The notes below the pieces were generated by a model. The model had not been told where the DNA came from and ran no database searches. It worked only from the letters and a program-made list of their open reading frames with translations. The translations under genes and the position numbers were made by a program. A stretch of 64,000 nt of DNA from Helicobacteraceae bacterium (GTDB taxonomy: Bacteria > Campylobacterota > Campylobacteria > Campylobacterales > Sulfurimonadaceae): positions 1 to 64,000 of the forward strand of contig CANMJR010000010.1 in NCBI GenBank assembly GCA_947498025.1, given 5' to 3'. Shown here piece after piece: positions 27,280-63,740 of this stretch (the stretch's first letter is position 1; each line of letters opens with the position of its first letter).

Positions 27280-27319
27280 TTTTTTCCTTTAAAAAAATTA
27301 CCAAGTGACATGCTAACTG

Positions 27320-27456
27320 ATGTTACGCACTTTTATAAAAAAACTCGTAAAATCCCTTATTATTCTCGAAAAACAGAGTTTTTCGTAGCTTCAGGGGGTT
27401 GTAGGGACATATGTCCCTGCCACATAAACGGACGAGTTCGTTTATGTGCGTAACAT
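27320..27456 (-). repeat. Structured repeat element, copy 1 (between hslU and era)
   Basis: The 137-bp element is bounded by a perfect 11-bp inverted repeat (ATGTTACGCAC at 27320-27330, its complement at 27446-27456). Inside are a 10-bp-stem hairpin at 27421-27448, a perfect 16-base palindrome AGGGACATATGTCCCT (27403-27418), a 24-base block at 27385-27408 containing GGGGGTTGTAGGGAC, and an 8-bp-stem hairpin at 27367-27385. A second copy lies at 63545-63695 with the 24-base block 23/24 identical. The pairing of both hairpins is kept while stem sequences differ. The orientation matches the direction of hslU and era. Confidence 0.8.
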
Positions 27457-28784
27457 TATAAAATATATCTTGATAAGTCGTTGTCTTCAACAATAATATC
27501 AAGCTTCTCATGCACAAACTCTGCTGTTATTACAAAGTCCTCATTTTTATGTTCGTCCGCATTAAAACTTATCTCTTCCAAAACTTTTTCTAAAACAGTG
27601 TGCAATCTTCTTGCACCAATGTCTTCAGTAACCTCATTTGCACGATGTGAAACTTTTGCGATAGCTTTTATTGCCTCATCTTCAAAAATGAGGTTCACTC
27701 CCTCTACGCCTAAGAGCGCTTTGTATTGTGTAAGCAGAGAGTTTTTTGTTTGCGTTAAAATTTTGTAGAGCGTCTCTTCCGTGAGCGATTCAAGCTCAAC
27801 GCGAAGAGGAAATCTACCTTGAAGTTCAGGTATCAAATCGCTCGGTTTTGTAAGATGAAATGCACCTGCCGCAATAAAAAGAATATGGTCGGTATTTACA
27901 ACTCCATACTTTGTTGTAACACTGCTGCCCTCGACAATAGGAAGCAAGTCTCTTTGAACTCCCTCTTTGCTAGGGTCATTTCTGCCCTGTGACTTAGAGC
28001 TGATAGCAATCTTGTCAATCTCATCCAAAAAGATAATTCCACCATCCTCAGCGCGTCTGAGTGCTTCGGCATGGATGTTTGTCATATTGAGAAGTTTTGA
28101 AGTTGCTTCATTTTTTAAAAGTGATTTTGCATCTTTTACGCTCATCTCTTTTTTATTATCTTCTTTGTTCATAGCTGTAAATATTTTAGAAAAAGATTCT
28201 TGAACTTTTGCCATCTCCGGCGGAAGATTTGTGTCATTAAACTCAATATTTATCTTATCAAATTCAATAGAGATAATTTTATCATCCATCTCACCGTTTA
28301 TAACTTTTTCTTCCATTGACTTTAAAATTTTTGCATAATCATCTTTTTTCTCTTGGCTTGCTTGTTCCGGCAGGGGAGGGAGAAGTTTTTCTACGATTTT
28401 ATTGACAATATAGTTTTCTATTTTGTCTTTGTTTGTCTCTTCTTGCTCTGCTTTTACGAGGTTTATTGCATTTACAACCAAATCTCGTACCATTGACTCA
28501 ACATCTCTTCCGACAAAACCGACTTCAGTGTATTTGCTCGCTTCAACTTTTATAAAAGGGACTTTCATCATGTTTGCAAGACGTCTTGAAATTTCAGTTT
28601 TTCCGACACCAGTTGAACCGATCATAAGAATGTTTTTAGGCATTATTTCATCTTGAAACTCTTGGCTTAGCTGCATTCTTCTATATCTTGTTCTAAGTGC
28701 GAGAGCAATAGTTTTTTTGGCGTCTTTTTGAGAAATAACATATTTATCTAAATACTCGACTATCTCTTTGGGAGTTAAATTCAT
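27456..28784 (-). CDS. hslU: HslUV protease ATPase subunit HslU
   Basis: This is the AAA+ unfoldase of the HslUV protease. Walker [10 protein letters not shown] lies near residue 60, the I-domain spans about 110-225, Walker [11 protein letters not shown] follows, and sensor residues lie in [16 protein letters not shown]. The C-terminus ends in DLSRYIL, the tail that docks into HslV. The 442-residue length is normal. It overlaps hslV by 4 bases, and its stop abuts the end of the structured repeat. Confidence 0.97.
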
Positions 28785-63544: not shown

Positions 63545-63695
63545 ATGTTACACTGCACAATTTATGTTACACACTAAAATGGACGCGTCCGTTTTAGTGT
63601 GTAACATAAATTGTCCCTACAACCCCCTAAAGCTACCCATATCTGTCGGATATGGGAGAAAAATTAACACTTTACGCTCTTTTTTATAAAAGTGC
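63545..63695 (+). repeat. Structured repeat element, copy 2
   Basis: This copy opens with a 58-base near-perfect palindrome (63557-63614, one T/G mismatch per arm pair, centre GGACGCGTCC). It continues with the 24-base block at 63613-63636, which is 23/24 identical to copy 1 (27385-27408, other strand). Then comes an 8-bp hairpin CCCATATC/GATATGGG (63636-63656), followed by AGAAAAA, TTTACGC and TTTTTTATAAAAGTGC shared with copy 1. The hairpins keep position and size but not sequence. It fills the gap between two plus-strand genes and reads in their direction. Confidence 0.8.
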
Positions 63696-63740
63696 ATGAG
63701 GTCAGTCAATAAATATATGGATATGTAAAAAGGATTTTTT

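Follow-up and report, generated by a model that had tools for sequence, protein, structure and literature searches.

A dispersed MITE with IS701-family ends and a three-hairpin interior that is probably kept by selection on one folded strand

The element at positions 27317 to 27459 of the window (the whole 64-kb stretch of DNA that was analysed) belongs to a genome-wide dispersed family of repeats of about 143 bases, which is almost certainly a MITE. The reading that we favor, with a probability of roughly 0.6, is that an IS701-family transposase likely moves this MITE in trans and that selection on one folded strand keeps its three-hairpin interior.

Copy number, spread, and the two copies of the window

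The initial annotation had described a two-copy element. This was wrong, since 82 places in the source genome carry a 15-nt core, TCCCTACAACCCCCT, with up to two mismatches (62 of them exact), versus 2 places for the reversed control. Within the window, a scan for CCCCCTRAAGCT with up to one mismatch returned only the sites of copies 1 and 2 (expected number, 0.19; at least two sites in 3 of 100 shuffles). A longer core was present in 111 of 200 genomes of the family and in 33 of 397 genomes of the phylum, the latter distributed over the source family and three others; the carriers among the named matches listed include names such as Sulfurimonas, Sulfuricurvum, Sulfurovum, and Sulfurospirillum. 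A covariance model built exclusively from other genomes matched both window copies, with 84.9 and 45.8 bits. A lack of further copies, stems that do not covary, or an Rfam match had been named as observations that would speak against the proposal; further copies exist, the stems do show covariation, and nowhere in the 64-kb window did an Rfam family attain its cut-off. Literature searches returned no description of the repeat itself; REP counts for Sulfurimonas gotlandica are given in PMC12306157.

Read in the direction of the initial annotation, the repeat consists of the left end CTGATGTTACGCAC, hairpin 1 overlapping that end, GGCA, hairpin 2 (GGGAC..GTCCC), the linker TACAACCCCCTRAAGCTA, hairpin 3, AGAA, a tail with TTTACG, and the right end GTGCGTAAGGTCAG. 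Copy 1 (143 bp, minus strand) has ends matched to the terminal repeats and no visible target duplication. It lies between an AAA ATPase gene and a gene for a GTPase with a KH domain, which we take to be HslU and Era, respectively. Its left end, ATAATGTTACGCAC (27446 to 27459), differs from CTGATGTTACGCAC by 2 mismatches and provides the TAA stop codon of the upstream AAA ATPase gene. Hairpin 1, CACATAAACGAACTCGTCCGTTTATGTG (27421 to 27448), contains the usual A.C, a G.U on the opposite strand, close to its tip. It is followed by hairpin 2, GCAGGGACATATGTCCCTAC (27401 to 27420), by the linker TACAACCCCCTGAAGCTA (27386 to 27403; opposite strand, TAGCTTCAGGGGGTTGTA), which begins with the foot of hairpin 2, by hairpin 3, CGAAAAACTCTGTTTTTCG (27367 to 27385), and by the right end, GTGCGTAACATCAG (27317 to 27330), all on the minus strand. 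The conserved block and stem quoted for this copy, GTCCCTACAACCCCCTGAAGCTA and then CGAAAAAC/GTTTTTCG, were found as described on the minus strand.

Copy 2 (63561 to 63705, plus strand, 145 bp) is located after a Crp-type regulator gene; it too was delimited by its terminal repeats and has no visible target duplication. The quoted block GTCCCTACAACCCCCTAAAGCTA and stem CCCATATC/GATATGGG are present on the plus strand, and its parts include the linker TACAACCCCCTAAAGCTA (63618 to 63635), hairpin 3, CCCATATC-TGTCG-GATATGGG (63636 to 63656), and the right end GTGCATGAGGTCAG (63692 to 63705). The limits first proposed, 27320-27456 and 63545-63695, were slightly off with respect to those given by the terminal repeats, 27317-27459 and 63561-63705. 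The other hairpin had been said to keep its pairing with a different stem. It does pair in copy 2, but it is no ordinary covariant, as its arms are a perfect 50-nt palindrome (63561 to 63610) that comprises hairpin 1 and the left end and replaces the left arm of hairpin 2, which is lost. Copy 2 looks like a template-switch product, and its palindrome indicates that rewriting of a palindrome in one step does occur. More pieces of the left end precede the palindrome in the interval 63545-63610.

Both window copies lie between co-directional genes and read in their direction, as had been noted, but this holds for only 30 of the 87 copies of the source genome that have two flanking open reading frames (ORFs). 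Orientation to genes is not fixed, the four contexts accounting for 30, 26, 18, and 13 of these copies. Visual inspection of 23 copies in four genomes revealed no clear orientation bias relative to the replication strand.

Ends, target duplications, and a probable IS701-family partner

Full copies are bounded by 14-bp inverted ends, CTGATGTTACGCAC and GTGCGTAAGGTCAG. Both ends retained at least 10 of 14 letters in 85 of 205 distinct elements, the rest being decayed or cut at one end. Exact 7-bp repeats flank 18 of the 85 full copies, versus none for lengths of 5, 6, and 9 to 12 bp and 3 for a length of 8 bp. With one mismatch allowed from 7 bp upward, the flank score was at least 6 for 40 of the 85 full copies, versus about 4 when the right flanks were shuffled. 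No flank duplication was seen in 43 of the 85, both window copies included. At one gene junction, the element is present in 7 of 30 relatives and absent from the other 23. The repeat thus has three features of MITEs, namely, terminal inverted repeats, a duplication of fixed length (7 bp), and the presence of both in an autonomous element of a relative. This transposon-type nature, apparent from the inverted ends, the 7-bp target duplications, and the match of the ends to an IS701-family insertion sequence, was missing from the initial annotation. Positions 1501-1759 of locus L223 (G200:C9:27538-27796) hold a 259-bp element that has these ends (CTGACCTTACGGAC) but a different, long-palindromic interior and is a candidate for another MITE family.

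In one relative (G202), the 14-bp end lies tens of bases from several contig ends, and the complement of the adjoining sequence encodes the C-terminal end of a protein, with the stop codon inside the 14-bp end. A degenerate pattern for this type of junction matched 18 sites, located in 12 of the 228 family genomes searched. A complete insertion sequence of 1102 bp in a relative (L257/L274) carries CTGACCTTACGCAC at both ends, an exact 7-bp duplication, and an open frame of 351 codons. The protein matches the NCBIfam model NF049921 for the IS701 family with 342.5 bits (cut-off, 250) as well as Pfam DDE_5 and DDE_Tnp_1; against the older IS701 model NF033540 it scores 104.3, below the cut-off of 150. 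A second insertion sequence (L282; 40% identical) has the ends CTGATGTTACGATA and the exact duplication AAAATCA. Duplications are decayed or unequal in other insertion-sequence copies, and the CGGAC variant of the MITE end is also seen in insertion-sequence ends (L276, L280). The link between the MITE and the IS701 family rests on the common ends and the common duplication length; judging from these sequence features, an IS701-family transposase most likely moves the MITE in trans, in which case it would cut at both MITE ends.

Relatives of the transposase were detected at E<=0.001 in 37 of 228 family genomes, many being fragments or remote. Neither the end-junction pattern nor the protein search revealed such a transposase in the source genome, which may have lost it. 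No autonomous element was found there either among 20 end-only loci of which the first 190 bases were read, with ORFs listed for two, and a search of 1.1 Mb of loci for end pairs 400-6000 bp apart gave one pair, spanning two MITEs. Genome G005 has an intact transposase but no match to the core. By eye, co-occurrence of transposase and MITE is unclear, the core being present in 11 of the 17 genomes that had a transposase match at E<=1e-20 and also lay in the 200-genome core survey, versus 111 of 200 overall.

Covarying hairpins, a probable folded strand, and conservation at shared loci

In an alignment of 56 copies from other genomes, RNAalifold paired 13 positions of hairpin 1, of which 11 had compensatory changes; hairpin 2 hardly varied and thus gave little covariation information, and hairpin 3 was misaligned. 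The arms were anchored for a set of 147 copies (86 from other genomes, 61 from the source genome), drawn from 214 elements after setting aside 26 without a parsable junction and 40 more with weak stems, so that the figures tilt towards pairing. For the 86 copies from other genomes, the Watson-Crick fraction was 0.941 for the 10 pairs of hairpin 1 and 0.935 for hairpin 3, versus 0.672 and 0.532, respectively, after shuffling. Both-sided cells numbered 165 versus 40 for hairpin 1 and 200 versus 44 for hairpin 3, and none of 300 shuffles came close. Hairpin 2 was not fully paired in 28 of 88 copies of the source genome and in 35 of 126 others. Six strands were folded (both strands of copy 1, copy 2, and one relative), and each was more stable than all 200 shuffles, with z values of -6.05 to -8.90.

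The mismatches that remain are unevenly distributed between the two strands. On the strand read in the initial annotation, 121 of the 147 copies have A.C at one and the same position of hairpin 1; with this position excluded, hairpin 1 has 44 A.C and 12 G.T mismatches. For hairpin 3, the counts are 38 A.C versus 20 G.T, divided into 20 versus 6 in other genomes and 18 versus 14 in the source genome, where the excess nearly vanishes. A cruder, unfiltered parse that included fixed positions gave A.C/G.T counts of 234/43, 189/37, and 70/26 for hairpins 1 to 3, respectively. The binomial values for the A.C excess, 1e-5 and 0.012, overstate the case because the copies are related; in addition, weak-stemmed copies had been dropped. 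Because an A.C mismatch corresponds to a G.U wobble on the complementary strand, the excess of A.C places the wobbles on the strand opposite to that of the initial annotation. Equal numbers of A.C and G.T are expected if folding is not strand specific, and the observed excess therefore speaks for a strand-specific fold. The computed fold of the opposite strand was the more stable one in two of three elements. The proposal of a folded RNA or single-stranded DNA thus holds as far as whole-stem covariation around conserved unpaired words (147 copies) and strand bias are concerned, but the strand to which the wobbles point is the other one.

The invariance of the linker in the covariation alignment was set aside because the copies there had been found by the linker. 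Among 54 copies of the source genome found by the left end and hairpin 1 alone, the linker CCCCCTRAAGCTA was exact in 43, and mean identity was 0.96 in CCCCCTRAAGCTA, 0.78 in the loop of hairpin 2, and 0.56 for shuffled letters.

Several variant forms were seen. In one subfamily, which carries CCCTTGCAACCCCCTAAAGCTA and is represented by loci of G081, G101, and G131 and by L202 and L220, the pairing at the foot of hairpin 2 is free of the wobble. Hybrid forms of hairpin 2 combine one GGGAC/GTCCC arm with one GCTGC/GCAGC arm in copies of the source genome, such as L036, L059, L075, L076, and L206, as if copies had recombined; the left arm is of the GCTGC type in 8 of 88 copies of that genome. 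Four loci of G202 (L231, L234, L237, L246) have an extra hairpin, TGTCATGGAGTATGCCATTGGTTAGCATACC, within the linker, between CCCCC and AAAGCT. Loci L230, L233, L236, and L245 of G201 include short forms that lack hairpins 1 and 2 yet retain both ends, as well as forms with a tandemly duplicated hairpin 3. Some hairpin tips of the MITE, for example, in the source-genome copies L019, L020, L021, and L032 but nowhere in the window, carry a nested palindrome of about 40-45 nt with TTTCTTTAG at its end. This insert may be a second mobile unit targeting such tips. It was found near hairpin 1 in 4 of 88 copies of the source genome and 1 of 126 others and near hairpin 3 in 23 of 88 and 11 of 126, respectively.

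Three related genomes, G131, G081, and G101 (20, 19, and 15 copies), share seven orthologous pairs at five loci, four of the pairs linking G131 with G081. The majority of copies are thus not common to these species, and the search used the core, so that decayed orthologs were missed. Element identity in the seven pairs was 87/95, 84/97, 92/97, 92/97, 83/94, 98/98, and 74/97, versus 70-89% for the flanks over 300 bp on either side. The element exceeded both flanks in five of the seven pairs, corresponding to three of the five loci, and did not at the other two loci; our confidence in the joint claim of mobility and selection is tempered by this split. Two of the seven pairs showed a subfamily change in the core (19/22), which could reflect replacement.

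A few copies seem, from their sequences, to stay at one locus past the decay of their ends, an example being the junction of a DUF3972 gene with an ARMT1-like (DUF89-type) gene. The copies L151 and L323 at this junction, both without ends, are identical at 78 of 89 positions, whereas only 14 of 45 fourfold sites of the next gene match. In a windowed comparison, the two element windows were 0.83 and 0.91 identical, versus 0.45-0.85 for the flanking windows. The nearest other copies within G131, G081, and G101 match at only 76, 70, and 69 of 90 positions, indicating that copying within a genome did not yield the likeness of L151 and L323. The site has been hit by insertion more than once, since L304/L306 and L331 have ends, which makes shared descent of L151 and L323 likely but not certain. 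Locus L330 was left out of the gene comparison at this junction (8-9 matching residues, owing to the frame). The pair L323 and L328, identical at 90 of 90 positions, was rejected as proof of selection because its identity profile is raised into the end of the adjoining gene.

Competing explanations and relation to known systems

Under the reading that we favor, the folded strand would be the opposite one, 5'-hairpin 3-TAGCTTTAGGGGGTT-hairpin 2-hairpin 1-3', which would act as an RNA or a single-stranded DNA; a partner would likely make contact at the conserved linker. In a fuller, tentative version, the interior would serve as a nucleic-acid device under selection: an RNA or single-stranded DNA that has three hairpins, is specific to one strand, and holds a conserved TAGCTTTAGGGGG linker. 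This device would have spread on IS701-family ends across four families of one bacterial order, be bound by a putative protein, and have been domesticated at some loci after end decay. The main rival, a serious one although we consider it less likely, is that the MITE is neutral and its interior without function, template switching in quasi-palindromes rewriting one arm from the other and recent descent from few source copies making the linker look fixed. The palindrome of copy 2, in which one arm has overwritten the left arm of hairpin 2, is the type of event that this explanation calls for, and it accommodates the hybrids with unmatched hairpin 2 arms, the sharing of only 4 of about 20 copies between G131 and G081, and the persistence of both ends in L230 and L236, which lack hairpins 1 and 2. 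However, a neutral interior predicts A.C and G.T in equal numbers, rewriting would erase the one-sided A.C of hairpin 1 that most copies keep, and the element has been retained between L151 and L323 where the fourfold sites have largely diverged.

A structured RNA or regulatory element that does not move and is found at many genes for its usefulness would explain why, in several genomes, end-less copies at one gene junction retain the hairpins and the linker. However, the target duplications, the match to insertion-sequence ends, the 23 of 30 relatives lacking the element at that junction, and the mixed gene orientation make this explanation quite improbable. The REP/REPIN units moved by RAYT (Y1) transposases, raised in the initial annotation, are a very improbable source despite 10 Y1_Tnp matches in the source genome and a TAG(C) beside a hairpin on the opposite strand. 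To our knowledge, REPs have neither target duplications nor long inverted ends, whereas the repeat has both, together with the IS701-family end match; of the 10 Y1 loci, 8 were read, and none had an end match or flanking copies, the closest being a single decayed core at a distance of about 1 kb. A guide or omega-type RNA of a TnpB/IscB system would likewise have conserved words and covarying hairpins, but this origin is extremely improbable given the ends of an IS701-family element, no guide-like segment, and no Rfam match at cut-offs in the window. Kinship with the Clostridiales-2 RNA (Rfam RF02937) was not accepted, as scores lay far below the cut-off of 58.6: the full model matched the opposite strand at L161 5657-5737 (+) with 21.2 bits and at L086 7021-7103 (+) with 20.5 bits, these being weak matches in two of four relatives' loci, and window copy 1 gave no match at E<=1.

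Bacterial MITEs are mostly viewed as inert palindromes. The present family, which numbers dozens of copies per genome across many species, amounts to a mutagenesis experiment done by nature, in which pairing can be told apart from sequence and the folded strand is indicated, and its copies without transposon ends offer tests of a host role. If the folded strand does have a partner, a mobile repeat would be a vehicle spreading a structured nucleic acid across families.

Among known systems, MITEs of insertion sequences, such as Correia, RUP, and Nezha, are likewise short, dispersed, and intergenic and have inverted ends and a duplication common to a full-length insertion sequence; three covarying hairpins, strand-biased wobbles, and a conserved linker inside are the features of the present repeat. 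With the IS701-family insertion sequences (NF049921), it has in common the 14-bp end and the 7-bp duplication of L257/L274, but it lacks a transposase gene and its interior is unrelated. Published IS701 elements make a 4-bp duplication, a value for which literature searches gave no confirmation, and the 7 bp of L274 and L282 therefore set the L257/L282 subgroup itself apart. REP/REPIN units with RAYT similarly form many intergenic hairpin copies per genome, but the repeat differs from them by its target duplications, its inverted ends, and its location away from the Y1 genes examined. BOX and ERIC are dispersed repeats whose transcripts would fold, as here, but their sequences and hosts are other ones. 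The mobile part thus belongs to a familiar type, the MITEs of IS701-family elements, the duplications being 7 bp long in this case, whereas the interior departs from the MITEs cited above.
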